A stretch of DNA of 64,000 nucleotides from Gammaproteobacteria bacterium (GTDB lineage: Bacteria > Pseudomonadota > Gammaproteobacteria > UBA6429 > Thiohalophilaceae): the NCBI GenBank assembly GCA_016194635.1, contig JACQBC010000030.1, positions 1 through 64,000 of the forward strand, written 5' to 3'. Position numbers and translations under genes: made by a program. Under the pieces are notes generated by a model, which was not told the origin of the DNA, ran no database searches, and saw nothing but the letters and a program-made list of their open reading frames with translations. Numbering within the stretch: the stretch's first letter is position 1; every line of letters begins with the position of its first letter. Shown here one piece after another: positions 14,679-56,810 of this stretch.

Positions 14679-15078
14679 GGTAACCCGCAGGTAGTTGTAA
14701 CGGCTCGATTTAGCATTGCAAGAAGTTGTGTACACATTTGAGAGGAGTTTATCACTTTTCCGTGCGCGGATACTTTGCTAACCTGCCATAAATACAGCGG
14801 TTATGACGCCGCTCCTGTGCGGCTCCGTGGTTCTGTCTCACTACCCCAGCTGTGACACGCCGTGAATACATCCTTGTAGACCCGACGGCGACAGCTGGGG
14901 TAGCGAGACAGAACCACTTGAGTTAGCTTTTTTATCTCGGTTAGAACAAACGTGATTTGACACAACACTTCTTGTGAGTTGATATGAAGGTATGCATTGT
15001 CTAAGTAAAAATAGACCTGGCGGCCGCATGTCAATGGTTAGGTTTGTATCTTAAAACCCGCGACAGCGGCCAACACCT
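14679..15078. other. Intergenic stretch upstream of ruvC
   Basis: No gene is supported on either strand. It holds palindromic element A (14827-14917, listed separately) and presumably the promoter of the ruv-tol-que block on the minus strand. Small open frames here run through the palindrome and are not genes. Confidence 0.5.
14827..14917 (+). repeat. Palindromic element A (core with locus-specific arms)
   Basis: Arms at 14827-14853 and 14891-14917 are 27-bp inverted repeats with one mismatch. The 37-base core holds the family linker GTGAATACATCCTTGTA (14862-14878) followed by CGACGGCG; the second half of the inner hairpin seen in the other copies is missing, so this copy is truncated. It lies 160 bases beyond the 3' end of the FHA gene and 150 bases upstream of ruvC. 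A terminator role for the FHA transcript is plausible. The arms share no sequence with those of elements B, C or D. Confidence 0.85.
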
Positions 15079-15432
15079 TTATGACTCTGGAATATAAATC
15101 GCGGTGCGCTCGTGCGTCACCGCATCGCCGCTATCGAAAATAAAACTATGTTTGCCGACGAGAATCGTATCCCCATGTTTAAGCAACTGCTTACGCACCA
15201 AACTGTCGTTAACCTTGGTGCCGTTGGTACTTTTAAGATCTTCAATATAGATATCAAAATGCCCTTGTAAATACTCGCTGGGTTGACGCAGAAACTGCGC
15301 ATGCCGACCACTCACTGCCGCGTCTTCAATTTGAATATCGTTATCCGAGCGGCGGCCTAAGGTGGTGATGGGTTTGGCCAGTGGGAATTCCCGCAGGTTG
15401 ATGCCTTCATGGGTCTGAATGAGTTTAGCCAT
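15079..15432 (-). CDS. FHA domain protein, single domain
   Basis: A 117-residue cytoplasmic protein made almost entirely of one forkhead-associated domain, which binds phosphothreonine. Landmarks are TLGRRSDNDIQIEDAAVSGR (Arg and Ser of the phosphate pocket), the His after SGRH, and LKSTNGTKVNDS. It is the last gene of a four-gene kinase-phosphatase-FHA-FHA cluster and lies 6 bases after the larger FHA gene. It is likely a substrate or reader of the cluster kinase. The start is the ATG at 15432. Confidence 0.9.
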   Translation of the reverse strand: MAKLIQTHEGINLREFPLAKPITTLGRRSDNDIQIEDAAVSGRHAQFLRQPSEYLQGHFDIYIEDLKSTNGTKVNDSLVRKQLLKHGDTILVGKHSFIFDSGDAVTHERTAIYIPES

Positions 15433-15438
15433 GGTACG

Positions 15439-16131
15439 TCAATTGGTTTCAACAAACTGTAATTTGGTGCTCGCCACTTCAATAACGTCGCCATTCTTCA
15501 AGGGCTTGCTTTCCGCACCGATCGGCTGATTGTTTAAACGCGGCGTGGCATTGGTTCCCCCCACGCCACTCATCTGCATGAGATGGTAATGGGCCCCACG
15601 CTTGGCGATCACGGCCACCTGCACCCCCGGGGTGCCGACCGTGGTGTAGGCCTTGGATAATAAAATTTGTTCGCCCTGTTTGGCGCCGTTGAGCACTTTG
15701 ATAAAAGCACGTTTGTTGGCATTGGCGGCAACCACGGGGGGTGGGGTCAGGTTGGCACTGGCGGCGGCCGGGTCCAGCCGCGGGGTGGGAGTTTTAGTGG
15801 GTGAGGATTCGGGGGCGATCACCACCGTGCGCTCAAATTGTTGGGCGCTCTCATCGATAAATTTAAGTTCGTGGCGGCCGATGCGGATCACGTCGCCATG
15901 ATTAAGTTGGCGCTTGGTGACCCGTTTGCCGTTGAGGATCACCCCATTGGTACTGCCCAGGTCCTCGACGTAGATATGTTGTAATTTTAAAAACGCCGCG
16001 TGTTCGCCGCTGACCGTGGGATCATCCAACACGATATTATTATGGCCTTTACGGCCTAGAGTGGTACGCTCGTGTTCCAAGCGATACTCGCGGAGCACCG
16101 CGCCTTCATGGGTTAAAATCAAACGTGGCAT
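15439..16131 (-). CDS. FHA domain protein with a second FHA-like domain
   Basis: A 230-residue cytoplasmic protein. An N-terminal FHA domain (about 5-95) has TTLGRKGHNNIVLDDPTVSG, the following EHAAF and GSTNGVILNGKRV. A Thr/Pro-rich linker (about 105-140) with FERTVV-I-APE motifs could be the phosphorylated segment. The C-terminal part (about 145-230) resembles a degenerate FHA fold (QGEQILLSKAYTTVGTPGVQ ... NATPRLNNQPIGAESKPLKNGD). It is 1 base after the PP2C stop codon, so translation is coupled. Its N-terminus is similar to the neighbouring single-domain FHA protein (PRLILTHEGAVLREY versus AKLIQTHEGINLREF), suggesting duplication. Confidence 0.88.
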   Translation of the reverse strand: MPRLILTHEGAVLREYRLEHERTTLGRKGHNNIVLDDPTVSGEHAAFLKLQHIYVEDLGSTNGVILNGKRVTKRQLNHGDVIRIGRHELKFIDESAQQFERTVVIAPESSPTKTPTPRLDPAAASANLTPPPVVAANANKRAFIKVLNGAKQGEQILLSKAYTTVGTPGVQVAVIAKRGAHYHLMQMSGVGGTNATPRLNNQPIGAESKPLKNGDVIEVASTKLQFVETN

Positions 16132-16132
16132 G

Positions 16133-16972
16133 TTACGTTGTTTCCTCTATTCCGGGGTCGTCATTGGCGCGCAGTTCCTGACTATCCCCTGGATTGATAC
16201 CGTGTTCGTCTGAAAAAGCCTCGGTGAACCCCACGAGTATCACCGAGATATTATCCGTGCCGCCGCGGCTATTGGCCAATTCCACCATGCTGTGCGCGGC
16301 CTGTGCAATATCTTGCCGATGCTGGATCAGGCTCGCCTGCATATCCTCTTCGTTGAGCAGATCCGAAAGCCCATCCGAACACAATAGATAAATATCCTCT
16401 TTTTCCAATTCGTGGGTTTCAACATCCACCTCCACCTCGGGGGAAATGCCCAGGGCACGGGTAATTAAATTACGGTTGGTGGACAATAAGGCCTCTTCTT
16501 CGCTGAGATAGCCATTATCAACCATTTCCTGCACCAGCGAATGGTCGGAAGTGATTTGTTCTACCTCGGCGTTGCGAAAGCGGTAAATCCGCGAATCTCC
16601 CACGTGAGCAAAGGTAATTTTACTATCGTGAAACAAGGTCAATACCAAGGTGGTTCCCATCCCGGCACATTCCAGGCGAGAATTGGCCTGTAAGTGTATC
16701 TCTTCGTTAGCATAGACCACAGCCTCACGGACTGCATCGGCAAAATTAATCACATTGGCCTCAACCAGCTCTGGAATCAAGACATCGTGCAGCGCCTCGC
16801 GGATGGTGGTGACCGCCAATTCACTGGCAATCTCACCGGCATTGTGCCCGCCCATGCCATCCGCAAGCAAAACCAGTCCGATGTCGGCATCCCAACCGAT
16901 GCTATCTTCATTGTGTTCACGGCTCATGCCAACATCCGTAACACCATGAATCACCAGTTTCAAACGTTGCAT
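16133..16972 (-). CDS. PP2C-family Ser/Thr protein phosphatase
   Basis: A 279-residue cytoplasmic metal-dependent phosphatase (Stp1/PstP type) that reverses Ser/Thr phosphorylation. Motifs are TDVGMSREHNEDS, LADGMGGHNAGE (metal-binding Asp and Gly), AHVGDSRIYRF, TSDHSLVQEMVDNG, LLCSDGLSDLL and RGGTDNISVILV, all in family order. It lies 23 bases after the kinase gene and directly before the FHA genes, so it should act on the same phosphoproteins. Confidence 0.95.
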   Translation of the reverse strand: MQRLKLVIHGVTDVGMSREHNEDSIGWDADIGLVLLADGMGGHNAGEIASELAVTTIREALHDVLIPELVEANVINFADAVREAVVYANEEIHLQANSRLECAGMGTTLVLTLFHDSKITFAHVGDSRIYRFRNAEVEQITSDHSLVQEMVDNGYLSEEEALLSTNRNLITRALGISPEVEVDVETHELEKEDIYLLCSDGLSDLLNEEDMQASLIQHRQDIAQAAHSMVELANSRGGTDNISVILVGFTEAFSDEHGINPGDSQELRANDDPGIEETT

Positions 16973-16995
16973 TTGCCCACCTGATCTTTGCGCAT

Positions 16996-19560
16996 TTACA
17001 TACGCTCACTACAGCGTAGCAGGGCCTGTGCGAACCGTTCCCCGCTCTGGAAACGCTCCGCCGCCATTTTCGCCAAGGCCTTGTTAATGATTCGACTTGC
17101 ACAGGCCGGTAGATCAGGACGGAACAAGCGCACATCGGGATGTTTTTCATTAGTGATTTTATACATCAGGCTGGCCAAGGACTCACCTATAAAAGGTAAT
17201 TCACCGGTTAACATTTGGTATAAGGTAACCCCCAAGGAAAATAAATCGGTTCGTCCATCGACCTTTAACCCCGCCAATTGCTCGGGCGACATATACGACG
17301 GACTGCCCAAAATGGTACCGGTCTTGGTTTTGCTCGAATCGGTAACAAAGGCCACGCCAAAGTCCGTTACCTTGAGCGTGCGGGTATCGCGGTCATAAAT
17401 TATGTTGGCGGGTTTGATATCGCGATGCACCACATTGTTGCGATGCGCATACTCCAAGGCGTCACCCACCTTGGCCAGCATTTCAAAAATTTCTTTGGCC
17501 GGTAACAGACTGTCGGATTTGCAATAGGCCAGTAGATTCTCGCCTTTTAAGTAATCCATGGCGATGTAATACAGGTCTTCTTCTTCACCCACGTCGTAAA
17601 TCGTGACAATGTTGGGATGGTTGAGCCGTCCTGCGGTTTCGGCTTCACGAAAGAAACGGGTTTTTACCTCTTCAAGCTTGTCGCCTTCAAACTCCTGCGA
17701 CAACAACATGGTTTTAATCGCCACGGTGCGTCCGATCTTGGGGTCACGGCCCAGGTAGACCATGCCCATAGCACCGCGTCCGAGTTCGCGCTCTATGGAG
17801 TAACGTCCTAAGACCGGCTTTTGTAGATTGGTGTCATTTAAGATTAACGTCGCGCCAAAATTGTTGCTCACGCTGGAACCTAGAGAACGATTGGTTTGTT
17901 TGGCGCGATCAACTTTTTCAGCCACGTCACGATAAAACGGATCGGCATCAGCGATGAATTCAAACGCGGAAAGCGCCTTGTTGTATTGACGTTTACGCTC
18001 ATAATCCAAAGCGAGGTTGTAGACATTGTCCATCAGGGCTACATTCATAACACACTTACGGTAGCGATCGAATGCTTGGTCCAGCTGCCCCTGGGTCTGG
18101 AATTGTTGACCGAGCAATAAATTGGCGGTGGATAGTTCGCCTTGGATGCGCTCTACTTGCGCCGCCAGAAAATGCTCCAAACTCAATACCCCGTGCCCTA
18201 TCAGTAAGGACAACATGGGGATCACCAACGGTATCCAAGTGGACTTACCGATCATCAACACAAAGTGCGCGTTGAGTAACAACAAAAATAACACCACACT
18301 CACCGCCACCCCGGTGGTTATACGCAGCCGTGGTAATACAAACATCAAGTAGATACCGATCAACCACAAGATCAACCATTGCACCGCGTTACCCCAGGCC
18401 GGGACGTTGTACAAGTCACCGTTTAATAAGCTCGATACCACGTGCGCGGTAAAAATCACCGGCGGCATGTTAACCCCAATCGGCGATTCCAAGGCCACGG
18501 TGTGCTGCCGTGCGGTAAATCCCACAATCACGGCCTTGTCGCGCAATAACTTCGGATTCACTCCATAGTTCAACACATCTTTAACCGAATACACTTTAAA
18601 CGGACTTTGGCCGTTTTTGCCCGGGTAAAAATACGGGTACACCCGTAGTTGTTTATCGGTATTGATGATGAGCTGTTTGTCGGTACTGTTGAGGGTTTGT
18701 TTAAGCAAGATCGACCCGTTTAAATCCGCCTGTAGATGGCGCGGGGGCAATTGCAAATAATGCGCGACAATCATCAACGACAGGGATGGGAAATATTCAT
18801 CGCGATAACGGATCACCAGGGGTTCTCGCCGCGCCTGCTCTTCACTGTTCAACCCGGTGTTGAGATGTCCTACCGCGTGCACATAGCGGGATAACTCCGG
18901 AATCGGTGGGTAGGCATTTTCGGCGACCGGTACCGGCGCGGACATAAAGGTACGCTCCAGCCAATTGGATTCTCCGGGTTTACCGCCGACGATATCGATC
19001 GCAAAACGCCGCAGTTCGTCCGAGACCTTGGCATCGGTGGGGACATAATGCTTACCGGCAAGATCATAGGGCATGCCCAACACGATGGGACCGGATTTTT
19101 GCAGGCTTTGCGCGAAGGTACGATCCGTATCCAAGCCTTCTTCGGCGCGTTTCACCATGCGTTTGATATCGGGATTGACATTCGGCATGGCTTCAATGGA
19201 GGTGCGCAGTTCTTCGATATAGGCCAACCCGTAACTGCTCTGGCGTGTATCAAAAGGCATCGCATAACCCACCACCGCGGGACCGGACGCCGCGATAATA
19301 TCGTTTAACCGGGCGAGGATATCGCGTGGCCAGGGCCAACTGCCCAATTCTTGAATCGCCGCATCATCGATGGCGATCACCACCACATGGTCATTGGTGG
19401 CGCGATCCGTGGTAAAACGCACACCCAAGTCATAGGCCCACCATTCCAGATCGCGGAATTTATCCGCCACCCCGAACACAAAAAACACCAGGGTTACGAC
19501 CAAGCCGACAAACCAGTCTTTTTTCCAATACTGCGGTATGTTCAAAACGGCCTCACCCAA
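16996..19560 (-). CDS. CHASE2-sensor Ser/Thr protein kinase
   Basis: An 854-residue membrane kinase. One N-terminal helix (about 15-32) leads to an extracytoplasmic CHASE2 sensor (about 35-370, start YDLGVRFTTD, VVVIAIDDAAIQELGSWPWP), then three membrane helices (about 385-470), a short coiled or TPR-like region (about 490-570), and a C-terminal kinase domain (about 588-850). Kinase motifs are complete: GRGAMGMVYLGRD, VAIKTM, HRDIKPANI (about 712), TDFGVAF and GSPSYMSPEQL. The order sensor-then-kinase is the reverse of PknB. It heads the kinase-phosphatase-FHA-FHA cluster and likely starts the signal. The stimulus is unknown. Confidence 0.93.
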   Translation of the reverse strand: MGEAVLNIPQYWKKDWFVGLVVTLVFFVFGVADKFRDLEWWAYDLGVRFTTDRATNDHVVVIAIDDAAIQELGSWPWPRDILARLNDIIAASGPAVVGYAMPFDTRQSSYGLAYIEELRTSIEAMPNVNPDIKRMVKRAEEGLDTDRTFAQSLQKSGPIVLGMPYDLAGKHYVPTDAKVSDELRRFAIDIVGGKPGESNWLERTFMSAPVPVAENAYPPIPELSRYVHAVGHLNTGLNSEEQARREPLVIRYRDEYFPSLSLMIVAHYLQLPPRHLQADLNGSILLKQTLNSTDKQLIINTDKQLRVYPYFYPGKNGQSPFKVYSVKDVLNYGVNPKLLRDKAVIVGFTARQHTVALESPIGVNMPPVIFTAHVVSSLLNGDLYNVPAWGNAVQWLILWLIGIYLMFVLPRLRITTGVAVSVVLFLLLLNAHFVLMIGKSTWIPLVIPMLSLLIGHGVLSLEHFLAAQVERIQGELSTANLLLGQQFQTQGQLDQAFDRYRKCVMNVALMDNVYNLALDYERKRQYNKALSAFEFIADADPFYRDVAEKVDRAKQTNRSLGSSVSNNFGATLILNDTNLQKPVLGRYSIERELGRGAMGMVYLGRDPKIGRTVAIKTMLLSQEFEGDKLEEVKTRFFREAETAGRLNHPNIVTIYDVGEEEDLYYIAMDYLKGENLLAYCKSDSLLPAKEIFEMLAKVGDALEYAHRNNVVHRDIKPANIIYDRDTRTLKVTDFGVAFVTDSSKTKTGTILGSPSYMSPEQLAGLKVDGRTDLFSLGVTLYQMLTGELPFIGESLASLMYKITNEKHPDVRLFRPDLPACASRIINKALAKMAAERFQSGERFAQALLRCSERM

Positions 19561-19693
19561 TGCTGCGGGTTAATTTCTATTGGTGGCGCTGCAACGCCTT
19601 TCTTATATGCAGTGAGACTAATAGTAGTTGGAGGGGCGTCACTCCACAAGCAAAAGTAATAATATCAATACCTTAGCATTTTATCGTTAAAAA

Positions 19694-21484
19694 CTAGCTC
19701 TTTCCCTCCGCTCCCGGGGTGGGTTGACGCAGGCGTATATGCAATTCACGCAATTGCTTTTCAGCCACCGGCGAAGGGGCGTGGGTTAACAAACAACTGG
19801 CCGTCTGGGTTTTGGGAAAAGCCATGACCTCGCGTATCGAAGCCGCGCCGACCATTAACATCACCAGGCGATCCAAGCCAAAGGCGATACCTCCGTGGGG
19901 CGGGCAACCGTACTTGAGGGCTTCAAGCAGAAAACCGAATTTATCCTGCGCTTCGGCGGGTGAAATTCCCAATTGCTGGAATACCTTGGCTTGTTGCTCC
20001 GGACGGAAGATACGCATAGATCCCCCCCCGATTTCAGTTCCGTTGAGCACCATGTCATAGGCACGGGACAAACAGGCGCCGGGGTTGGATTCCAACAGGT
20101 CGACATGTTCGGGCTTGGGCGCGGTAAAGGGGTGGTGCAAGGCCACATGGCGTTTTTCGATGGGGTCGTAATCGAACATTGGAAAATCCACGACCCATAG
20201 GGGTTGCCAGCCCTGTTGCACTAGCTTGCGATCGTGACCGAGCTTGATGCGTAACGCGCCTAACGCTTCGTTGACCACCTTGGCCTTGTCGGCGCCAAAG
20301 AAGATCAGATCGCCCGATTGCGCCGCGGTGCGCGCTACGATGGCCGTGAGCGCCGTATCGGAAAGGTTTTTGACGATGGGGGATTGCAGGCCGTCACGGC
20401 CCTGGGTGACGTCATTCACCTTGATATAGGCCAGACCCTTGGCGCCGAAGACAGCCACGTAGGCCGTATACGCATCGATCTCCTTGCGCGTGAGTTCGCT
20501 GCCGTGGGGCAGCCGCAGCGCGGCGACCCGTCCCTGGGGGTCCTGAGCTGGACCGCTAAAGACTTTAAACTCCACCTCTCGCATGACGTCGGCGAGGTCG
20601 ACCAACTCCAGGGGAATACGCAGGTCCGGTTTATCCGAGCCGTAACGTTGCATGGCATGCGCGTAGGTCATACGGGGAAACGGCTTGTGCAAGGGCACTT
20701 CCAAGACCTTGGCAAAAACCTCGCGGATCATCCCCTCCATCAGGGTCATGATCTGCTCTTCTTCCAGAAACGAGGTTTCGATATCCAACTGGGTGAATTC
20801 CGGCTGGCGATCGGCACGGAGATCTTCATCACGGAAGCAACGCACGATTTGATAATAGCGATCCATCCCGGCCATCATCAGCAATTGCTTAAATAACTGC
20901 GGTGACTGGGGTAGGGCAAAAAACTCACCCGCATGGGTCCGGCTGGGCACCAGGTAATCGCGTGCTCCTTCCGGGGTGGCGCGGGTCAACATCGGGGTTT
21001 CGATTTCCAGGAAACCGTGTTCATCCAAATAGTGGCGGAAATAACGCGCAACAGCGCTACGCAATTTTAGGTTTTGTTGCATGCTGGGACGACGTAAATC
21101 CAAGTAGCGGAACCGGAGGCGGTTTTCCTCGGTGACGGTATCATCGTCCAGCATGAAGGGGGGGGTTTCCGCGCGGTTGAGGATTTCCAGGGTGGTCCCC
21201 AGAATTTCGATCTGACCGGTGGCCATATGCGGATTCACCGTCCCTGCCGGGCGACGGCGGACTTTACCGGTCACTCGTAAGACATATTCACTGCGTACCC
21301 GCTCTGCGGTGGTGAACACCTCGTGCTGTGCCGGATCGTACACCACCTGGACCAGCCCCTCCCGATCGCGCAGATCGAGAAAAATCACCCCCCCATGGTC
21401 ACGACGGCGATGGGCCCAGCCACAGAGGGTGACGGTCTGGTCGATATGGCGCTCGTTGATCTGGCCGCAATAGTGGCTACGCAT
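19694..21484 (-). CDS. aspS: AspS, aspartyl-tRNA synthetase
   Basis: The 596-residue class II synthetase has an N-terminal OB-fold anticodon domain ([20 protein letters not shown]), class II motif 1 ([20 protein letters not shown]), motif 2 ([20 protein letters not shown]), a bacterial GAD insertion, and motif 3 ([13 protein letters not shown]). It charges tRNA-Asp in the cytoplasm, possibly also tRNA-Asn; which cannot be told here. It lies 72 bases after the FmdB zinc-ribbon gene. The usual downstream neighbours nudB or yebC are replaced by the kinase cluster. Confidence 0.97.
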
Positions 21485-21556
21485 AACAGGTCATCTAGGA
21501 AAACAAAGGCGGGCATGTTACGGCCTTGGGCCCGCAGGCGCAAGCCGTTGAGGCAT

Positions 21557-21841
21557 TTAACTGCTGGGCTTGTCCGTACCGGTCGTGGGTTTACTCACCT
21601 CGGGGCTTTTGCTACTGTCCTTTGACTCCCCGCCAGCCTCGGAGAGGTTCTTTTTATTGTTGGTTTTGAAATCGGTTTCATACCAGCCCCCGCCACTCAA
21701 GCGAAACCCCGGCGCGGAAATACGTTTTTGCAAGCGGGGTTGGCCGCAGGCGGGACAATCCTTTAAAGGATCATCACCGAGTTTTTGTAATTTCTCCACG
21801 CGGTGACCGCAGGCGCTACAATCGTATTCGTAAATCGGCAT
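21557..21841 (-). CDS. FmdB-family zinc ribbon protein
   Basis: A 94-residue cytoplasmic protein. The N-terminal putative regulatory zinc ribbon has two CxxC pairs (YDCSACGHRVE and DCPACGQPRL), and IYEYDC is the family start. The tail after GFRLSGGGWYETDF is low-complexity, rich in Ser, Lys, Pro and Glu. The function of the family is unknown; it is routinely found just upstream of aspS in Gammaproteobacteria, as here. Confidence 0.93.
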   Translation of the reverse strand: MPIYEYDCSACGHRVEKLQKLGDDPLKDCPACGQPRLQKRISAPGFRLSGGGWYETDFKTNNKKNLSEAGGESKDSSKSPEVSKPTTGTDKPSS

Positions 21842-21951
21842 GGATGGGTCCGTTGCAGGGTTGGATTAACCACCGTTGCAACATAAGGTAAAGCCTGACG
21901 GGTTTCAAGCCATGCCGACCAAGCATTTATTGATTTTTCACCGAGAGCGAC

Positions 21952-22614
21952 ATGCGCCATCCCTTCCACGGCTTGCAATGGTTACTGCTGCTGATTGCCC
22001 TGGGCATAGTGCTGCTGGCGATGCAGCTGCAGGTTGTGAATCTGACGGCGGATAAAGTAGGGCTCTCCGCGACCGGGATGATCAGTTTATTATTTCTTTC
22101 CTTATGCAGCAGCGGCATTCATCTGCCGCTCTGCAAACTAAAATCCAGTTTTGATCCCCAGCAATTTCCGGATCTGTGGCGTTTTGGACCTGCCACCCAG
22201 AATTTTAGTCACGGCCAGACCCGGCTCATGATCAATGTCGGCGGTGGTGTCGTCCCGGTGAGTTTTTGTATTTTTCTCCAACTACAGCACCCGTTGCCAC
22301 TACCCACCCTCACGCTGGCGATTGCGAGTACGACGGCGATTTGTTATTTCTACAGCCGTCCGATCGCCGGCATGGGTATCGGCATGCCGCTGTTCATTGC
22401 GCCGATCAGCGCGGCCTTGGTCGCTATTCTACTCTCCACTGAACAGCGCGCGGCGCTGGCCTATATCAGCGGAAGCCTGGGGGTACTGCTTGGAGCGGAT
22501 TTATTGCGACTGGCTGATATCCGCCAACTGGCAGTGCCCCAAGCCGCCATTGGCGGCGCCGGGACCTTTGATGGTATCTTTATCACCGGTTTAATCGCCG
22601 TGTTATTAACCTAA
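21952..22614 (+). CDS. DUF1614 membrane protein
   Basis: A 220-residue inner-membrane protein with about six hydrophobic segments. The C-terminal IGGAGTFDGIFITGLIAVLL is the hallmark of DUF1614, a family of unknown function common in archaea and some proteobacteria. It runs divergently from fmdB, and its stop is directly followed by the start of an SDR gene (TAAATG), so the two are co-translated. GAGAG lies 5 bases before the ATG. No function can be assigned. Confidence 0.85.
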   Translation: MRHPFHGLQWLLLLIALGIVLLAMQLQVVNLTADKVGLSATGMISLLFLSLCSSGIHLPLCKLKSSFDPQQFPDLWRFGPATQNFSHGQTRLMINVGGGVVPVSFCIFLQLQHPLPLPTLTLAIASTTAICYFYSRPIAGMGIGMPLFIAPISAALVAILLSTEQRAALAYISGSLGVLLGADLLRLADIRQLAVPQAAIGGAGTFDGIFITGLIAVLLT

Positions 22615-23448: not shown

Positions 23449-23568
23449 TCCGGTTTCATCAGCGCGCTATACCCAGGGCCGAAACGGCGTACCCGGTTGG
23501 CATACATTTCAACTTGTTGTACAACCTGCTAGGCTATTCGTAACCTCAATATTATCCCAGAGATCATT

Positions 23569-24621
23569 ATGCTGATTCTTGATGAACTGAAACGCCAGTC
23601 GGAAAAATATCACAATGATCAGGAACAAGCCAACCAGGAAGAAAGCAGCTTGCAGCATTTACGCTGCATGAAAACCATCGCCGCGCTGCAACAGATCCAT
23701 GAATACCTGCACCAACTCATCGAATTGGTCAATGAACTTAAGCCTGAGATTCGCGTTACGATTGAGGTTGGGGCTTTAGGCCAGCTACCGAATCTGCGCC
23801 AGAATGAATACCGCCTGTACGCTGAAAGTTCACATAACAAAGAAATCGTGCGTTTGGTATTCACTATGCAAAGCGATACCAGTATCGAAATCACCAATGA
23901 TGAAAGCCCGGAAATCCAAAAACACTTAGACCTGTGCCGCAAACAAGGTCTTATCGTATCGTATGTCTCGCGCACCCCGCCGCGGATCAATATTAATGGT
24001 TACGTACCCGGCGCCATCGAATTTTATTCGGATTTCGCCGAATCCAAGATTCGTGTGATTATCCAAAACTGTGATAGCGTAGTCGAGAAACATTACCTGT
24101 TAAACACCGACCGTATCTCTGAAGACACACTCAATCAGCTCGGCAATTACATCTTGCGGCGTTCAACTAAATTCTTGGAGATTCTAGTGGTTGATACTCA
24201 GGCTGCCAACGGCAGTTCTCAATCCAATCCACAGCTTACCCTCTACCCCCAAACCCAAGAGATGGAAGCATCACGGTTAAAATCCTTATTCACCCGTGAG
24301 CAACACTTGTACCTCACTTACCACAATAAGATTAAAGACCTCGGCACCCAGCAAACAAAATTCGTGATTGGCCGCGCACCGGATTGCGATTTGATCATCA
24401 ACTCGGATTTGGCCTCACGCCACCACGCCGCTATTGTGTACCGCAACGGAAAATTCGTACTGATCGATCAAAGCACTAACGGTAGTTTTATAAAAGGGCA
24501 AAGCGGTAAAGAAGTCTACGTGCGCGCCGAAGAAACCCCCATTACCGGCGCTGGATTCATCAGCTTGGGGAAATCGGTAACCGTGGATAATGAAAATCTG
24601 ATTTACTATTCGTGTCAATAG
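23569..24621 (+). CDS. FHA domain protein with an unidentified N-terminal domain
   Basis: A 350-residue soluble protein. The N-terminal part (about 1-75) is predicted helical and possibly coiled coil (NDQEQANQEESSLQHLRCMK). The middle (about 75-240) is not recognised. The C-terminal 100 residues form an FHA domain: TKFVIGRAPDCDLIINSDLA, then SRHHAAIV and STNGSFI. This third FHA protein lies on the opposite strand from the kinase cluster 4 kb away and could be another reader of its phosphorylation. It is transcribed alone and followed by palindromic element B. Confidence 0.85.
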   Translation: MLILDELKRQSEKYHNDQEQANQEESSLQHLRCMKTIAALQQIHEYLHQLIELVNELKPEIRVTIEVGALGQLPNLRQNEYRLYAESSHNKEIVRLVFTMQSDTSIEITNDESPEIQKHLDLCRKQGLIVSYVSRTPPRININGYVPGAIEFYSDFAESKIRVIIQNCDSVVEKHYLLNTDRISEDTLNQLGNYILRRSTKFLEILVVDTQAANGSSQSNPQLTLYPQTQEMEASRLKSLFTREQHLYLTYHNKIKDLGTQQTKFVIGRAPDCDLIINSDLASRHHAAIVYRNGKFVLIDQSTNGSFIKGQSGKEVYVRAEETPITGAGFISLGKSVTVDNENLIYYSCQ

Positions 24622-24707
24622 CAGCCAGTAGACTAAAGGTGCAAATTGATTAGTTTAGTTATAGAAGCAACCACAAGATCACATCGCTTGCCATTCATTG
24701 GTTTGTT

Positions 24708-24823
24708 AGTGGGTTTGGATGAGACAGGCTGTGCTGTGACCGTCGGCGGCATGGATGCCGCCGTCGAGCTACAGGGACGTATTTACGCGAGTCACAGCAC
24801 AGCCTGTCTCATCCAAACCCACT
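24708..24823 (-). repeat. Palindromic element B (core with locus-specific arms)
   Basis: Arms at 24708-24740 and 24791-24823 are perfect 33-bp inverted repeats. The 50-base core, read on the minus strand, holds the linker GTAAATACGTCCCTGTA (24786-24770) and a perfect 9-bp inner hairpin CGGCGGCAT/ATGCCGCCG (24744-24752 with 24755-24763). It sits between two convergent genes (the FHA gene and the ABC permease gene), so a bidirectional terminator role is likely. The arms are unlike those of elements A, C and D except for the last three bases (GAC/GTC). Confidence 0.93.
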
Positions 24824-24891
24824 CGCCTCGTCAGGTTAGTAAGGTTTCGCAAATAAATCCAAATAGATGATTATATAAAAAATGACATTAT

Positions 24892-26582: not shown

Positions 26583-26594
26583 GAGTGCGGGTAA

Positions 26595-31381: not shown

Positions 31382-31385
31382 AACC

Positions 31386-37435: not shown

Positions 37436-37606
37436 GTGGGTGGTTGTCGGGTTGATCGGTAGGGGTGACTCGCTGTAAATACATCCTTGTACGCTCGACG
37501 GCCGCAGTCGCTCACGCCATCCTGCCTTCCGCGACACTTGCACTTCCTTGTGCATCGTCCCTGCGGCCGACGGTCACCCCTACCGATCAACCCGACAACC
37601 ACCCAC
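37436..37606 (+). repeat. Palindromic element C (core with locus-specific arms and insert)
   Basis: Arms at 37436-37469 and 37573-37606 are perfect 34-bp inverted repeats. The core (103 bases) has the linker GTAAATACATCCTTGTA (37475-37491) and a perfect 9-bp inner stem CGGCCGCAG/CTGCGGCCG (37499-37507 with 37561-37569). The inner stem is separated by 53 extra bases that themselves hold a TGCAC/GTGCA hairpin, so this copy is expanded. It lies 22 bases after the hypothetical gene and would end the pepA transcript. Its arms do not match those of the other copies. Confidence 0.93.
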
Positions 37607-46440: not shown

Positions 46441-46463
46441 CTCTAGTAAAGCTGCTCTACAAT

Positions 46464-47918: not shown

Positions 47919-48031
47919 AGGTATTCCCTCAGATATTTTATGAATAAAAGTTATAACATGCTGCTAACAATACGAGGTTAAACCGTACCATGCCAGTCGC
48001 ATTGACTACATTTTACAAATAAGATACATCC

Positions 48032-50017
48032 ATGAGTTTCCTCTATTTGGGCGCCACGCTGATGTTGCTAGTGGTTAACCTGGCGGCATTATCCCTTGGG
48101 TTGCGTTGCTGGTTACCCCATTACCTGCTCGCCAAGGCGGTGGGCCTGGTGGGTCTGTGCCTGCTGGGGTTTTTTATCGAGCATTTTATCGGCCTGGGTA
48201 ACATCACCTGGCTGTGGCCGATCAGTACGCTGATTTCTCTCACCGTGCTTTATCAACAACGTGAGGTTTTTATCACCCGCCTATGGCGGCAAGAATTAGT
48301 GTTTGTACTGGCGCTATTGGCGGCCCTGGCCTGGAAATTTTCCTTTCCGGATATCGATAGCCATTCCGAACAACTCACCGACCTGGCCTTTATCAGCAGT
48401 TACCTCTCCGGTGAGACCTTGCCGCCCACCGATTATTGGTTGCCCAGCCAACGCTTAAATATGTATTACGCCTTTCAGCATTACGCGGCGGCACTGCTGG
48501 GTCGGGGTTTGGGTTTATCTCCGGGCTATACCATGAACCTGGCAATTGCATTGATGCTAGCGCTATTAGCCAGCTTGGTCTGGTTTGTCGCCAGCCAGTA
48601 TTGTCATAGGCGCAGCTCAAGAGTGTTGTTGCTGATCGCGGTGATGGCCGGTGGCACCGGTATCGCACCGCTGACACATTTTATCCTGCCCCAATCCGAT
48701 CAAGATAAAGCCTTTAACGCCATGAGCAACCTCTGGGCTAATACCCGTTTTGCCGGCATGTACGATGAACACACGCAGGACACGCCCCTGGGACGGATTT
48801 TATTTTCCCCCCCGAGCAGCGCGCCAACCGAAGCCCGGGACCTGCCGCTGGAAACCATCGGTTATCTCGTCCTGTTGGGGGATTTCCATCCTCCCTTGGG
48901 CGGTTTCTTATTATTGTTGATTGCCTTAAGTTGCATCGTGGTGCTCGACACCGCAGCGGCAGGGAGTTCATCGCGCGTATTACAAATGATCCTGACCGCC
49001 ACCGTACCGGTAACGCTGATTACCAATACCTGGGTATTCCCCCTGCAAGCGGTATTAGTGTGCGCATGGGTGGTACAACGCTATTTAGCGAAAGCGCCGC
49101 TGGAGTGGCGCGCGTTATTGTCCGGCGCGGTCGTCAGCAGCGTGTTGATCTATCCATTTTTAACGCCGTTCGCAACCCACGCCTTGCACACCCCCTTGCG
49201 CTGGGTAACCAGCGTTGATCACACACCGTTGGATCGTTTCATCGCGATCCACTGGCCGGAATTGGTGCTGTTGCTGCTGGCGGCAATCACCGCCTACCGA
49301 CAACGTCGTTACCGTGGGTGGGTGATCGTGTTCGGCGGATTATTAATACTGACAGAGCTCATTTATGTCGATGACCCCTTGGGCGGAAAATACAACCGGT
49401 TTAATTCCACGCTCAAATGGTGGTCGTGGTTGTATCCCGCCATCGTGGTACTATTCGGCGCGCAACTGCTCGCCGCGCAACGTTGGCAACGCAATCTAAC
49501 GCTGCTAGTTCTCGTATTGATCGCCAGTTTTAGTTTCGATATGGCCCGTTATTGGCTTTATGCGAATAAATCCGCGCTGGGGAAACTTGACGGTCACGCC
49601 TGGTTAAGCGCCGACCCGGTCAGCGGCGCAATGTTGCAGTGGCTGCGCGTCATGCCCAAGGGCATTGTACTGGAAGGACTGGACGGGGGCGCCTATACAC
49701 CCCGCTCGGCGCTGGCGTTATTCGCCGCTAAACCTTCGCTAACCGGATGGCCGGACCACGAAGCGCAATGGCGCGGCAACCCCTCCGAGATCCTGCAGAA
49801 TGCAAATACCGCGCAGGCCTTCTACCGCGGTGAGTTGACCTCGGCGGTTACATGGTTAAGCGGCCAACAGGTTCGCTACATCATTTGGAATAAACGTGAT
49901 CAAGACAGCCATCCCACCGCGTGGCGTCGGATCCACGCACAAATCCAATCTGAGTATTATTGGAAGCCGTTTTGGCAGCAAGGCGATGTCGAACTTGGCA
50001 TTTGGTTTAGAAAATAA
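48032..50017 (+). CDS. DUF2298 (YYY) polytopic membrane protein 1
   Basis: A 661-residue protein with about 14 hydrophobic segments. DUF2298 hallmarks are seen: HSEQLTDLAFISSYLSGETL, PPTDYWLPSQRLNMYYAFQH followed by YAAAL, and near the end GGKYNRFNSTLKWWSWLYPA. These resemble the YYY membrane proteins described mainly from Chloroflexi and archaea, which are thought to be glycosyltransferase-like. A soluble-like C-terminal part (about 520-661) follows. It lies 17 bases before a close paralogue. Role in surface polysaccharide or protein glycosylation is a guess from the adjacent GT39 gene. Confidence 0.83.
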   Translation: MSFLYLGATLMLLVVNLAALSLGLRCWLPHYLLAKAVGLVGLCLLGFFIEHFIGLGNITWLWPISTLISLTVLYQQREVFITRLWRQELVFVLALLAALAWKFSFPDIDSHSEQLTDLAFISSYLSGETLPPTDYWLPSQRLNMYYAFQHYAAALLGRGLGLSPGYTMNLAIALMLALLASLVWFVASQYCHRRSSRVLLLIAVMAGGTGIAPLTHFILPQSDQDKAFNAMSNLWANTRFAGMYDEHTQDTPLGRILFSPPSSAPTEARDLPLETIGYLVLLGDFHPPLGGFLLLLIALSCIVVLDTAAAGSSSRVLQMILTATVPVTLITNTWVFPLQAVLVCAWVVQRYLAKAPLEWRALLSGAVVSSVLIYPFLTPFATHALHTPLRWVTSVDHTPLDRFIAIHWPELVLLLLAAITAYRQRRYRGWVIVFGGLLILTELIYVDDPLGGKYNRFNSTLKWWSWLYPAIVVLFGAQLLAAQRWQRNLTLLVLVLIASFSFDMARYWLYANKSALGKLDGHAWLSADPVSGAMLQWLRVMPKGIVLEGLDGGAYTPRSALALFAAKPSLTGWPDHEAQWRGNPSEILQNANTAQAFYRGELTSAVTWLSGQQVRYIIWNKRDQDSHPTAWRRIHAQIQSEYYWKPFWQQGDVELGIWFRK

Positions 50018-50034
50018 CCCAGGATATTACCATT

Positions 50035-52050
50035 ATGTATTTTATTTACTTAACACTCACGCTCGCATTACTGATGCTAAATTTGGCGGGCCTGACGTTA
50101 TTAACCCGCCGTTTCGTCCCCAGCTTGGCCTTGGCGCGCGCGGTGGGGATCATCGGTTTTTGTTTGCTGATGTTTTTTATAGAACACTTTATCGGCTTGG
50201 GACGTCTTAACTGGGTATGGCCGATCACCACGCTGCTGAGCGCTTACCTACTGCTGCAGCAACGTGCGGAACTGCGCGTCGGTGGATTCTGGAAAACCGA
50301 ATTAATATTTTACGGCTTATTCATTTACATATTTGCCTGGAGATTTTGTTTTCCAAGTATTTATCCGTCCTCCGAACACGTCACCGATTTATATTTCATT
50401 GCTAATTATTTCGACGGCACAACCTTACCGCCCCTGGATCATTGGTATCCGCCGCATCGGTTTAACATCTATTATGCCTTCCAACATTATGCCGCGGCCT
50501 TGATGGGCCGGATCTTTGCGCTTGACCCAGGCACAACGTATAACATCGCGTTTGCGCTGATCTTAGCCCTACCCGCCGCGCTCGCCTGGGAATTCACCGG
50601 GCATTACCTCAAAGCAATTTGGATCCGCGCGGTCTTACTGGTCGCACTGGTGAGTGGTGGTACCGGCATGACACCGTTATTGTTTTTCGTGCAGCCGCTC
50701 GCCCCCAATCTTAATACCCATCAACTGGCGGGGGCCTTGAGCGAACGTATCGTCACCGGCCAACGTTTTATCGGCTTGATGGATCAACGCACCACCGCCC
50801 CTATCGGCTTGGCATTATTTCCGCGCTTTAACCCCGCCGATAAACCCAACCCCAGCTTTGAACCCCTCGAGCTACCCGAAGAAACCTACGGCTACCAAAT
50901 TTTTCTCGGCGATTATCATCCCCCCTCCGGAGGATTCTTTTTGTTACTGCTGGCCCTGGCCCTGATCGCCGCGATTGAAAACCAGCGCATTGGCCGCATC
51001 GGTCAACCGCTGCTGGCCGCCACCCTGCCGGTATTAATGGTCACCAATACCTGGGTATTACCTTTGCAGGGTATCTTGATCGGTGCGTGGTTGGCGTACC
51101 GTTACTGGCAGAAAAATCCACCGGATTGGATTGGACTGGTGGCCGGGGGTAGCGTGGCCTTGGTATTGGTATATCCGTTCTTAAGCGGCTTTGTCACTAA
51201 CGTTCAAACCACCTCCATACGTTTCGTCACAATGATCAATCATACCCCGCTGAGCCGTTTTATCGGCATGCACTGGCCGTTGTTACTCTTGGTCTTGTTC
51301 GGTTTATTAAACCCGCAGCAGCGCCGTTTCAGCATAAGCCTGGCCATCGTCTTTGCGGCGCTGCTGCTGATCTCCGAGTTCGTGTATGTCGATGACCCCA
51401 GCGGTGGTAAATACGAACGCACCAATACTACGATGAAATGGTGGGGTTGGATCTGGACCGGGGGTCTAATCAGTCTAGGCACGTTGGGTTCGAGCAGTCG
51501 CGTGCGCTGGATCCGCTGGGGCACTATCGCGATAGTATTATTGATCAGCACGGCGGTACTCGATCTGAGCCGCTATTTCGTTTTAATGGACAAAAACGAC
51601 ATGGGTTACCTGGCCGGTCATCATTGGCTCACCCAAGACCCCACCCAAGCCGCGCTGGTGAATTTTTTACAGACGGAACCTAACGGTATCGTATTGGAAA
51701 ATCAATACGGGGATTCCTATGACAATACAACGCTGTATGCCCTGTTCAGCGGCAAACCCGCGCTGATGGGTTGGCCCGCGCATTTGATTACTTGGCGTCG
51801 CAATGTCATCGATGTCTATCCGATGAAGGAACGTATCCAAACCTTTTACGCGGGCAACCTCGCCGACAGTCTGGCATGGCTGCAAGCCAACCACGTGCGC
51901 TATATCGTCTGGAGCCCCGACGATAACAAAGATCCGCAAGCCTTTGTGCGCGTACAACAACAGATCAGCAACGGTTATCACTGGCAGGTATTTTACGACA
52001 CCGGCACCTATCGCGTCGGCGTGTGGATCGCCAATCAACCGACCTCGTAA
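50035..52050 (+). CDS. DUF2298 (YYY) polytopic membrane protein 2
   Basis: A 671-residue paralogue of the preceding protein with the same order of motifs: SEHVTDLYFIANYFDGTTLP, PLDHWYPPHRFNIYYAFQHY followed by AAALMGR, the shared YPFLSGFVTNVQTTSIRFVT/HTPLSRFIGMHW segment (HTPLDRFIAIHW in copy 1), and VYVDDPSGGKYERTNTTMKW. The similarity over the whole length shows a tandem duplication. Copy 2 is 17 bases downstream and converges on the GT39 gene, whose stop is 55 bases away. Confidence 0.83.
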   Translation: MYFIYLTLTLALLMLNLAGLTLLTRRFVPSLALARAVGIIGFCLLMFFIEHFIGLGRLNWVWPITTLLSAYLLLQQRAELRVGGFWKTELIFYGLFIYIFAWRFCFPSIYPSSEHVTDLYFIANYFDGTTLPPLDHWYPPHRFNIYYAFQHYAAALMGRIFALDPGTTYNIAFALILALPAALAWEFTGHYLKAIWIRAVLLVALVSGGTGMTPLLFFVQPLAPNLNTHQLAGALSERIVTGQRFIGLMDQRTTAPIGLALFPRFNPADKPNPSFEPLELPEETYGYQIFLGDYHPPSGGFFLLLLALALIAAIENQRIGRIGQPLLAATLPVLMVTNTWVLPLQGILIGAWLAYRYWQKNPPDWIGLVAGGSVALVLVYPFLSGFVTNVQTTSIRFVTMINHTPLSRFIGMHWPLLLLVLFGLLNPQQRRFSISLAIVFAALLLISEFVYVDDPSGGKYERTNTTMKWWGWIWTGGLISLGTLGSSSRVRWIRWGTIAIVLLISTAVLDLSRYFVLMDKNDMGYLAGHHWLTQDPTQAALVNFLQTEPNGIVLENQYGDSYDNTTLYALFSGKPALMGWPAHLITWRRNVIDVYPMKERIQTFYAGNLADSLAWLQANHVRYIVWSPDDNKDPQAFVRVQQQISNGYHWQVFYDTGTYRVGVWIANQPTS

Positions 52051-52104
52051 ATCAAGTCCACATTGTTTGCACAATGTTGGTAATTTTTTAAACCGGCCAA
52101 GGGA

Positions 52105-53640
52105 TTACTTGGCCAACGTATCAACAACCGCTGGCAAGGGCCCATAACGCTGGTCCATGTAACACTCCTTATCCGGCAACCAGCTAGGAATACGATAATA
52201 GTTGCGCCGCACTTCGGCCAATACCGTGTCACGGTACAAGGGATAATTAAATCCCGTCCCCAATCCCAAATGGAACTGAGTGCCCTCGAAGGGGATAATA
52301 ATGTGCTCAAAACTGCGAAAATATTTGGCATAATTCTCAATATCGGCGTCTTTGTCTAAGATGGCCATGGGCTTACCATCGAATTGACGAAAATCGGTGA
52401 GCATGTCGTCTTGCCGGCCGTGATACGACCCCGGACCGATCACCAACACCGGTTTTTTATCCGCAAACGCCAGTACCGCCGCGGCGGAATAACTCGGATT
52501 CGCCAGTGGAAAGTTATGCCGGTAAGGCTCGACCACGTTTAGCAAGGCCTTGGTGTGCATCGACGATACCAAGTCTTGATAAATACCGGGATGGCCGCGA
52601 AAACTAGCGGGTATGGTTGACAAGATAATAATAAACACCACTAAGAAGACCAAACTGAAGCCCCACATAAAATGGAAACAGACACGCAACTGACCGTAAC
52701 TCAAGAACACAGCCAGGGCGACAAATAAAAACGGATAGAAACTCAAGATCCAATGTCCACCCACCGATTTACCCATGGCAATCACCATGAATAATAAAAT
52801 CGGCACCAAGAACAGCACCAGAAACAACCCGAGGCCGTCTTGTTTAATGGTTTTAATCAGCTGACTTGGGCTGCGCCACAGGTAATACAACACCGGCGGG
52901 GTCATGATGACCAGCAACAGCAATAAATATTTGCCGAAGGTGATCAATGAAAAGGCAAAATCGGCGGTACGATTTTGTAAATTAAATAAATAATTATCCC
53001 AACAATGTTGATAATTCCATAACAGATTTAGACCAATAAACGGCACCACGCCCAGGATTAGCCATAATAGTCCGCGATAGGGCCGCCAACCACGGCGCAC
53101 GAACAACACGATATATAACAGGTATGCGATCCCGAGCAAGCCGGCGAAAAACTTGGAGATAAACGCCAAGCCCAGGCAAATACCGGTTAACCAATACCAA
53201 CCCCCTTGGTCACGGCGCTGGGCACGGTAGAAACACCACGCTGATACAAACGACCAGAAGATCAAAGGGGTGTCGGTGGTGATCAAGGGCACGAACAGGT
53301 TGACCGGCGCCATCCAATATAAACCCGCCGCCAATACCGCTAACATTTCGCCGCGCTTGCGCACGTAATAATAAATCGCCAGACCGATTAAGGTCGTGGT
53401 AATGATCGTCGGCAGGCGTAACCAGCCGATCGCATCGCTAACGTGCAACAAACCGGTGAGCCACCAGCCCACCATCGGCGGATGGTCGTAATAACCAAAA
53501 TCGGGATAACGGCCCCATAACACGAAGTAGGCCTCGTCGCCGGTAACCGGCACCCAAAATGCGATAACCAGTTTAATCACCAAGCTGATGAGGATCAGTC
53601 CCCAAAAAGCCTGGCGTTCGTTCAATCGAGCTAACAGCAT
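52105..53640 (-). CDS. GT39-family (ArnT/PMT-like) glycosyltransferase
   Basis: A 511-residue polytopic inner-membrane protein with 11-13 helices. The first periplasmic loop has the acidic catalytic motif GDEAYFVLWGRYPDFGYYDH followed by PPMVGWW, and a TDTPL piece follows. This is the layout of polyprenyl-phosphate-sugar dependent glycosyltransferases (family 39, PF13231). It could transfer a sugar to lipid A, a protein or another lipid; the acceptor is not evident. It converges with the DUF2298 pair and is divergent from valS. Confidence 0.88.
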   Translation of the reverse strand: MLLARLNERQAFWGLILISLVIKLVIAFWVPVTGDEAYFVLWGRYPDFGYYDHPPMVGWWLTGLLHVSDAIGWLRLPTIITTTLIGLAIYYYVRKRGEMLAVLAAGLYWMAPVNLFVPLITTDTPLIFWSFVSAWCFYRAQRRDQGGWYWLTGICLGLAFISKFFAGLLGIAYLLYIVLFVRRGWRPYRGLLWLILGVVPFIGLNLLWNYQHCWDNYLFNLQNRTADFAFSLITFGKYLLLLLVIMTPPVLYYLWRSPSQLIKTIKQDGLGLFLVLFLVPILLFMVIAMGKSVGGHWILSFYPFLFVALAVFLSYGQLRVCFHFMWGFSLVFLVVFIIILSTIPASFRGHPGIYQDLVSSMHTKALLNVVEPYRHNFPLANPSYSAAAVLAFADKKPVLVIGPGSYHGRQDDMLTDFRQFDGKPMAILDKDADIENYAKYFRSFEHIIIPFEGTQFHLGLGTGFNYPLYRDTVLAEVRRNYYRIPSWLPDKECYMDQRYGPLPAVVDTLAK

Positions 53641-53733
53641 GCGGATAGGGTGTGGGTGGGCATCGGCCCTAATGGTAGCAGAACTCGCTGATCTCTACCC
53701 CACTGGGTGCGGCGGTTTGGGAAAATTTAAGGT

Positions 53734-53739
53734 TATAAT
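53734..53739 (+). promoter_or_regulatory. Candidate -10 box of the valS promoter
   Basis: TATAAT sits 36 bases before the valS GTG start in the 135-base gap between the divergent GT39 and valS genes. No good -35 is seen at the matching distance (best is GGCGGT at 53711), so the assignment rests on the perfect -10 and its position. Confidence 0.4.
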
Positions 53740-53775
53740 ACGCCACTCCTACATTGTTGACAAAGACACTCGCCC

Positions 53776-56628
53776 GTGGATAAAACCTATCAGCCGCACG
53801 CTATCGAAACGCATTGGTATGCACGCTGGGAACAATGCGGTTACTTTGCCCCGCAACCCCAGGGCGCTGCCTATTGCATCATGATCCCGCCGCCCAACGT
53901 CACCGGTTCGCTACACATGGGTCACGCGTTCCAAGACACGATCATGGACGCCTTGACGCGCTATCACCGGATGAAAGGCGATAACACCCTATGGCAGGCC
54001 GGCACCGATCACGCCGGTATCGCCACCCAAATGGTGGTCGAACGGCAGTTGAATGCCCAGGGTCAGACTCGGCATGATCTGGGCCGTGACGGCTTCATCG
54101 CCAAGGTGTGGGAATGGAAGGCGCACTCCGGCGGGACGATTACCCGCCAATTACGTCGCATCGGCGCCTCGCTGGATTGGAGCCGCGAACGTTTTACCAT
54201 GGACGAGGGTTTGTCCGCTGCCGTACAAGAAGTGTTTGTCCGCCTCCACGAAGAAGACCTTATCTATCGCGACAAACAACTGGTGAATTGGGATCCCGTG
54301 TTACAGACCGCGGTTTCGGATCTTGAAGTCATCTCCCAGGAAGAAAGCGGGCATTTATGGCACTTGCGTTATCCGCTAACCGATGGGAGCGGACATTTGA
54401 TCGTCGCCACCACCCGACCGGAAACCCTGCTCGGTGACAGCGCAGTCGCAGTTCATCCTAATGATGAGCGGTACAAAAAATTTATTGGCAAACAGATTCG
54501 ACTGCCTATTACAAATCGCGAGATTCCTATCATCGCGGACGACTACGTGGACAAAGAGTTCGGTACCGGCTGCGTCAAGATCACCCCGGCACATGACTTC
54601 AACGACTACAAACTTGGAAAGCGCCATAAGCTTCCTTTGTTTTGTATCTTTACTAAGGATGCGAAGATCGTTAACGATGAAGATTGGCCGATGGTTAATC
54701 AAAACCTTAGATATGCGCGTATATCAAAGCGGCGCGATATTATCGACGTGGCATCCGAGATTGGCATACCAAGAGACTATTGGGGTCTAGATCGTTTCGA
54801 CGCACGCAAGAAAATCGTTGCCTATTTTGAGAAAGAGGGTCTCCTAGAGAAAATCCAACCGCATAAATTAATGGTGCCGCGCGGTGATCGCAGCCAGGCG
54901 GTGATCGAGCCCTATCTCACCGATCAATGGTATGTAAAGATTGCTCCTCTGGCCGAACCCGCGATCAAGGCGGTTGAAACCGGTGCGATTAAATTCGTCC
55001 CGGACAATTGGAAAAACACTTATTTTGAATGGATGCGCAACATCCAGGATTGGTGCGTCAGCCGCCAGATCTGGTGGGGCCACCGCATCCCGGCCTGGTA
55101 CGACGACCGCGGTACTATCTATGTCGCGCGCAGCGAAACCGAGGTCCGCAAGAAGTACCGGCTCAGCGACACGCTGCAACTCACACAAGACGATGACGTG
55201 CTCGATACTTGGTTCTCGTCCGCGTTATGGCCGTTTTCCACCTTGGGCTGGCCGCAACAAACACCGGAATTAAAAACCTTTTACCCCACCTCGGTGTTGG
55301 TCACCGGTTTTGACATCATCTTTTTTTGGGTGGCGCGGATGATCATGTTTGGGATGAAATTCACCGGCGAGGTACCGTTTCGCGAAGTGTATATCCACGG
55401 CCTGGTGCGCGATTCGCACGGGCAAAAAATGTCGAAGTCCAAAGGAAATGTATTGGATCCGATCGATTTGATCGACGGCGTGGATCTGGAAACCCTGGTA
55501 AACAAACGCATCACCGGCCTGCTGCGGCCCAAGGACGCCGCGGATATTGAAAAGATCACCCGCATCGAATATCCCAACGGCATTCCCGCCTACGGTACGG
55601 ACGCGTTGCGGTTTACTTTCGCGGCGCTGGCATCCACCGGGCGCGATATTAATTTTGATCTGAATCGGATCGAGGGCTACCGCAATTTCTGCAATAAGTT
55701 ATGGAACGCCGCGCGTTATGTGTTGCTCAATACCGAAGGCAAAGCCACCGGAACCGGTTACTCCAGCATTGAACTCTCCATCGCCGATCGCTGGATCGTT
55801 TCACGCTTACAGCAAACCATCCAACAAGTGGACGACGCCATTCAACAGTATCGTTTTGATCTGATGGCCAATGCGCTTTATGAATTCACTTGGAATGAAT
55901 ATTGCGACTGGTATCTGGAATTATCCAAACCGGTATTGGTGAGTGAAACCAGCAGTGCGGCGGCCAAACGCGGCACCCGTTACACCTTGATCCAAGTGTT
56001 GGAAACTCTGTTGCGTTTGCTCCATCCCATTATGCCCTACATTACCGAGGACATCTGGCAACGGGTCGCGCCCTTGGCCGCTATCCAGGGGGCAACGATC
56101 ATGTTGCAGCCCTTCCCCAGTGCCGATCGCGAACTGATCGCCACCGACGCCGATGCCGACATGGAATGGGTAAAACAATTTATTCTCGGGGTGCGGCAGA
56201 TCCGCAGCGGTATGGATATTAAACCCAGCAAACCCTTGCCGGTGTTACTGCAAAATGGCAGCGACGCGGATCGGCGGCGTTTGACCAACAATCAACACTA
56301 CATCGAGTTCTTGGCGCGTACCGAATCGATTCGCTGGTTAGGCGGCAATGACACGGCACCGGAAGCCGCCACCGCCTTGCTGGGAAATTTGAAATTGCTG
56401 ATCCCGATGGCTGGGTTAATCGACAAACACGCGGAGTCGCAGCGTTTGCAAAAAGAAATCGATAAGAAACACCAAGAAAAAGAACGTCTGGCCACTAAAC
56501 TGGCCAATCCCAATTTTGTGGACAAAGCCCCGGCCGCCGTGGTGGCCACCGAGCGAACACGCTTAGCCGCGATGGAGGCCGCTATGCAGCAATTAACCCA
56601 GCAATTGGAAAAAATCTCGCGGCTGTGA
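53776..56628 (+). CDS. valS: ValS, valyl-tRNA synthetase
   Basis: A 950-residue class I synthetase that charges tRNA-Val. HIGH-type motif [14 protein letters not shown] near residue 40, the editing domain (about 190-410), KMSKSKGN near 551, the anticodon-binding domain and a C-terminal coiled-coil ([20 protein letters not shown] near 885). The start is GTG 53776 by alignment to the usual [12 protein letters not shown]-terminus. The editing region (about 54430-54900) has more AGA, ATA and other rarer codons than the rest and a peptide about 20 residues longer than usual, suggesting recombination. Normally close to holC; here it is 16 kb away. Confidence 0.97.
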
Positions 56629-56696
56629 ACCGACACGGGGATGTTTGGAATCTCAACAAGGTCTTCTGATTTAAAAAGTCACTATCATTGACCGTC

Positions 56697-56810
56697 GGTG
56701 GTTGCCGGATCCATTGCGATGGTTGACCGTCGGCGGCAGGGATGCCGCCGTCGAGCGTACAGGGACGTCTTTACAGCGAGTCAACCATCGCAATGGATCC
56801 GGCAACCACC
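56697..56810 (-). repeat. Palindromic element D (core with locus-specific arms)
   Basis: Arms at 56697-56727 and 56780-56810 are perfect 31-bp inverted repeats. Read on the minus strand, the 52-base core has the linker GTAAAGACGTCCCTGTA (56774-56758) and an inner 8-bp hairpin CGGCGGCA/TGCCGCCG (56731-56738 with 56743-56750). It separates the convergent valS and DUF2970 genes, a terminator position. TGACCGTCGG, which marks the arm-core junction at 56724-56733, occurs again just outside the left arm at 56689-56698, possibly the scar of an earlier or shifted copy. Confidence 0.93.

Follow-up and report, generated by a model that had tools for sequence, protein, structure and literature searches.

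Four palindromic elements, A to D, lie in the 64 kb stretch of DNA analysed here (the window) and are its four strongest inverted repeats with a spacing within 300 bp. Their coordinates, arm lengths and mismatches, all of which agree with those given in an earlier note on this DNA, are as follows, with the strand being that which carries the GGA loops:

Element A, 14827-14917, - strand: arms 14827-14853 and 14891-14917 (27 bp, one mismatch)
Element A, inner parts: P3 (core hairpin) at 14867-14878; P2 (inner hairpin) absent
Element B, 24708-24823, + strand: arms 24708-24740 and 24791-24823 (33 bp, perfect); 50-nt-core subtype
Element B, inner parts: P2 at 24741-24766, loop ATGGAT; P3 at 24770-24781, loop AGGGAC
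Element C, 37436-37606, - strand: arms 37436-37469 and 37573-37606 (34 bp, perfect)
Element C, inner parts: P3 at 37480-37491; long P2 part with an additional hairpin, TGCAC-TTCCTT-GTGCA, at 37539-37554 (AAGGAA loop on the - strand)
Element D, 56697-56810, + strand: arms 56697-56727 and 56780-56810 (31 bp, perfect)
Element D, inner parts: P2 at 56728-56753, loop AGGGAT; P3 at 56758-56769, loop AGGGAC

On the GGA strand, the parts follow in the order arm, GAC, P2, linker, P3, GTC, arm. The arms form a long stem (P1) closed by a GAC...GTC junction that bears P2 and P3, both with ANGGAN loops on one strand. P2 has a stem of 8-10 bp and a loop AGGGAT or similar, while P3 reads TACA-NGGA-YGTA with a bulge. 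The folding z-scores of the four elements are between -11 and -14, and none of 200 shuffles was equally good. Immediately 3' of the stem, B, C and D lack the T-run expected of a Rho-independent terminator; on the + strand of A, there is a T-run approximately 10 nt downstream. The earlier note had grouped B, C and D by a GC-rich inner hairpin and set A apart, and this division stands, with the qualification that the inner part of C is longer. P2-less copies with near-perfect arms were seen at 14827-14917 in the window and at G000:C30:184420. Genes encoding FHA-domain proteins (15079-15432 and 23569-24621) adjoin elements A and B.

The core and its known relatives

A search of the source genome and its relatives revealed a multi-copy family extending beyond the four elements of the window. 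The source genome (3.7 Mb, 37 contigs) contains 144 covariance-model matches to this family, and the linker occurs there in 43 exact copies (reversed-pattern control: 0). Judged by simple ORF calling, the flanking genes are convergent at 47 copies, divergent at 11 and codirectional at 70.

P1 and P2 covary, with 95% of cells paired as compared to 75% in shuffles and double changes at 18 pairs. For P1 alone, 98.1% of cells in the seed alignment are paired and 11 of 13 pairs show double changes; as the rows of this alignment were picked by the linker and by pairing at 11 of 13 inner-arm positions, its linker columns and P1 pairing percentage are partly so by construction. The P1/P2 covariation and the P2 loop are independent of this selection. 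In other genomes, where hairpins were retrieved using P3 as the sole fixed part of the pattern, with P2 outside the search, the P2 loop is ANGGAN in 93 of 94 folded hairpins with 41 distinct stems. Among the 78-nt copies of the source genome, 84 of 91 have an ANGGAN loop in P2 and 81 of 91 in P3. The P3 stem of Stenotrophomonas maltophilia has CCCA/TGGG in place of TACA/TGTA and retains the loop ATGGAT, and long forms like C have one more hairpin with the loop AAGGAA. The loops of the core are fixed and its stems are free, and a core made of two hairpins whose loops fit the CsrA/RsmA consensus appears to be a new observation.

The earlier note knew of no named family with this pattern. The core is, however, that of the Yersinia palindromic repeat YPAL/RU-2 (approximately 167 bp; Rfam RF02770, Ysr224), which has a GCGCC-AAGGAT-GGCGC hairpin followed by TCGAGCCTACATGGATGTATTTACGGCGTC, has a long stem and is likewise intergenic and multi-copy. 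The RU-2/YPAL sequence of PMC2759123 can be aligned with element D and with a relative, L052, across both P2 and P3. Using cmscan at a relaxed threshold, Ysr224 matched D with 35.5 bits (E-value: 6.8e-7), which is below the gathering score of 70; at the gathering threshold, there was no Ysr224 match in the window. YPAL has been described as a mobile 168-bp repeat whose targets span or adjoin dyad symmetry (PMC2229807). The family described here differs from it in a wider host range, in ANGGAN loops as a constant feature and in arms that vary between sites, given that the constancy of YPAL arms is assumed from its description as one repeat. In the literature searched, from which the original YPAL paper was absent, no paper tied a YPAL-like family to CsrA or described the behaviour of the arms.

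Other known systems share some features with the elements. TwoAYGGAY RNA (RF01731) and Csr-binding RNAs of the CsrB/RsmX-Z type also have NGGA-loop hairpins, and TwoAYGGAY aligns to the long form C, but this match is not significant (17.6 bits, E-value: 3.3, threshold 43), its stem layout is different and the element here is a dispersed repeat. ERIC is a gammaproteobacterial intergenic palindrome of a size similar to that of the YPAL-like elements. REP, BIME and REPIN sequences and the CGTC- and GTAG-tagged repeats are likewise dispersed palindromes that lie outside promoters and form dimers, some REP dimers sitting in long palindromes (PMC3733652); unlike these, the element here has a three-way junction and a long variable stem, with neither a RAYT link nor a GTAG tag.

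It is very improbable that the elements are REP/REPIN sequences moved by a Y1 transposase (RAYT or TIRYT), with the S. maltophilia copies being the self-complementary TIR family reported for that species (PMC3733652). That report and the palindromic dimers between convergent genes speak for such a system, but four observations oppose it. First, PF01797 (Y1) was not detected in the source genome (a 99% complete assembly in which the control worked), nor in Luteimonas, Marinobacter lipolyticus or G029, and mobilization by a RAYT is disfavoured in the source genome for this reason. Second, the hairpin was found at none of 30 Y1 loci inspected, even at an E-value of 1. Third, the GTAG tag is not conserved, as the base after TGTA differs among copies. 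Fourth, CGTC belongs to P2 and is not an unpaired tag.

Arm sequence and arm pairing

The copies of the source genome fall into two groups with respect to their arms. In subfamily A2 (approximately 40 copies), the arms are constant and their changes are more often one-sided than double (1981 vs 789); this is ordinary MITE-like decay, in which the arms of an old repeat change singly. In the 62 non-A2 copies, arm complementarity within a site is 97.2%, whereas arm identity between sites is 35%. The proposal of a constant centre with variable but paired arms thus holds genome-wide with the exception of A2. The further claim that the arms are mutually unrelated was overstated, because some arms are common to several sites: C (GTGGGTGGTTGTCGGGTT...) and D (GGTGGTTGCCGGAT...) have related arms from one subfamily near GTTGGTGGTTGCCGGGTT, and many copies outside A2 share a drifting arm consensus. 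Based on the between-site identity of non-A2 arms, the family is a YPAL-like variant and not YPAL itself. Arms that are free in sequence and yet kept paired appear to be a new observation.

Half of the non-A2 copies carry no mismatch over 20-48 bp, which is a further difference from YPAL/RU-2. Double changes exceed single changes by 99 to 13 among non-A2 arms that are 75-100% identical, and by 1621 to 161 (approximately 10 to 1) among those that are 60-75% identical, these counts being taken over pairs of copies and hence not independent events. In the 50-nt-core subtype, cores are 81% identical and arms 36%, which is near chance; 8 of 14 copies have perfect arms. Mismatches in this subtype are five G.T and five A.C, showing no preference for G.U intermediates, while the 52-nt-core copies have 17 G.T and 11 A.C mismatches.

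These data bear on two other explanations. Under selection at the RNA level only, the stem would be a functional RNA clamp kept by ordinary compensatory mutation, with no copying of DNA. The strong covariation in P1 and P2 and the G.T mismatches of the 52-nt-core copies are as this predicts, but we consider it unlikely given the perfect pairing of so many long non-A2 arms with few G.U intermediates, the equal numbers of G.T and A.C mismatches in the 50-nt-core subtype, whose arms have diverged most, and an orientation to genes that is unbiased. A similarly low probability is assigned to MITE-like transposition, in which arms would move with the element and different arms would represent many old subfamilies. 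Neither a transposase nor constant outer ends were found, and the contrast between cores and arms in the 50-nt-core subtype does not fit this explanation; the A2 subfamily does, as do the target duplications of 3-26 bp reported for YPAL (PMC2229807), the near-identical copies of genome G012, and the oriented -/+ dimers of the source genome (-/+ in 8 of 10 close pairs, +/- in none) and S. maltophilia. In S. maltophilia SJTL3 (L345-L364), the -/+ pairs are separated by approximately 250-340 bp, a space that holds further hairpins such as GGGGTCAGATCCGTTTTCC.

The persistence of perfect pairing in long stems that change in sequence is not yet explained, and a single genome with tens of replicate stems on a fixed core allows template switching to be separated from selection. 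It is reported in PMC8794818 and PMC8604942 that template switching creates and maintains RNA hairpins, homogenizes their arms and inverts their spacers. We infer that it is the most likely mechanism of arm maintenance here. P1 arms would need only pairing, not a fixed sequence; template switching during replication inside the hairpin would re-copy one arm from the other, and the arms would stay near perfect because of this. They would thus change in concert and at times absorb flanking gene sequence, and the centre would at times invert. Two copies in G012 (L042 and L051) have conserved flanks but opposite core orientations, as expected of spacer inversion between inverted arms. In the core, selection would act on the two GGA hairpins, whose most likely role is that of a Csr/Rsm-type RNA site when transcription reads through the element, and new copies would spread together with ectopic conversion between copies. 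Taken as a whole, the explanation that we favour, and hold to be somewhat probable, is that A to D belong to a chromosomal palindromic repeat family of Gammaproteobacteria that is old and YPAL-like, with template-switched arms and selected GGA hairpins.

Orthologous sites and the origin of the arms

At two sites, the arms appear to overlap coding sequence, in each case over a short C-terminal stretch only. At folA (contig 1), one arm appears to include the final codons of the dihydrofolate reductase gene (Q-R-V, which align with the ends of solved DHFRs) and the second arm is an inverted copy of it. At lnt, one arm appears to encode a basic C-terminal tail, and the other arm is again its inverted copy.

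The sister species G001, of the same genus, has a two-GGA-hairpin element downstream of folA with unrelated arms and a different P3, and similar elements, again differing in arms and core, occur there at two further genes. In 388 kb of G001, three such elements were found, all three at positions where the source genome has an element. These elements (L424, L428 and L437) have a second hairpin type, with P3 GACAGGAWGTC, a CGATACGAAAAGCG-like end and variable arms of their own. Element sites may therefore persist through replacement of their arms, and even of the core type, or they may be hotspots, in which case different elements may have inserted independently. The suggestion that one arm is actively copied from the other is supported by the covariation and by this comparison, with template switching as the putative mechanism.

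The earlier note had offered, as another possibility, insertion of the core into an existing long palindrome. This found no support within the genus: in a comparison limited by divergence, the arms of 10 sites had no match above chance in the orthologous regions of G001 (0 of 10). A specific form of this idea, in which the core inserts into terminator palindromes and the arms are old terminator stems, is also quite unlikely, as most arms are 30-48 bp in length and some are AT-rich. It does account for the dyad symmetry at YPAL targets (PMC2229807) and for one clean S. maltophilia site found in a check for target duplications. The empty allele of this site is a short terminator-like palindrome, which flanks the composite on both sides when the site is filled, the second copy being inverted. 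No clean empty site was found in the genus of the window. Two other candidate empty sites in S. maltophilia (41775 and 237435) were rejected as probable deletion derivatives.

The comparisons with S. maltophilia and G001 each covered approximately 400 kb. Within this length, two S. maltophilia genomes of approximately 92% identity have more than 20 element sites in common, and the same site often holds a core of another subtype. Many double changes at orthologous sites in S. maltophilia accompany a swapped core and thus reflect conversion or replacement and not compensation in situ, which counts against the favoured explanation; the swaps of core subtype point to ectopic conversion or replacement as their probable origin.

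GGA hairpins, CsrA and distribution

The SELEX consensus of CsrA is RUACARGGAUGU, and RsmE recognizes an ANGGAN hexaloop (PMC7652899). P2 and P3 together provide the two or more GGA hexaloop hairpins (ANGGAN) that characterize a CsrA/RsmA site, and csrA is present in the source genome. Judged by their sequence, the core loops are plausible, though not quite probable, candidates for CsrA/RsmA binding. The P2 stem of 8-10 pairs counts against this reading, being more stable than SELEX-selected CsrA hairpins, in most of which no more than four pairs are contiguous (PMC7652899). Relative to codirectional flanking genes, the GGA strand is sense in 32 cases and antisense in 38, and this lack of bias speaks against a simple role in cis; an mRNA-sense role was rejected on the same grounds.

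With strict filters, 45 of the 274 gammaproteobacterial genomes sampled contained relatives of the family. By count, 41 of these 45 encode CsrA, as do most other genomes, and co-occurrence is uninformative given how widespread CsrA is in this class. Genome G231 (98% complete, nine element matches) was not among the CsrA domain matches, which also counts against the CsrA reading. A more tentative and rather doubtful proposal is that the repeats scatter dozens to over 100 predicted CsrA/RsmA hairpins as a genome-encoded system for Csr titration or mRNA tethering, with stems renewed by template switching, such that each copy would record hairpin-templated DNA synthesis. If CsrA does bind, repeats of a common class regarded as "junk" would belong to a circuit of global regulation in many Gammaproteobacteria, and maps of Csr targets would need to include these elements.

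Named genomes reached via the pattern have 15-139 copies each, including Marinimicrobium agarilyticum (139), S. maltophilia SJTL3 (122) and E301 (98), Microbulbifer halophilus (100) and Luteimonas weifangensis (78). The exact pattern had no match in 2.9 million viral contigs. A BLAST search with the gammaproteobacterial consensus, a 62-nt query of limited sensitivity, gave no match to plasmids, phages or E. coli; a Ysr224-like query likewise had no match in E. coli but did match Pantoea plasmids (E-value: approximately 2e-5). The element seems to break short-read assemblies, as many contigs start or end at a copy (C91, C124, C229 and C237 of G012, and C6, C7, C9, C10, C42 and C44 of G321, a Luteimonas).
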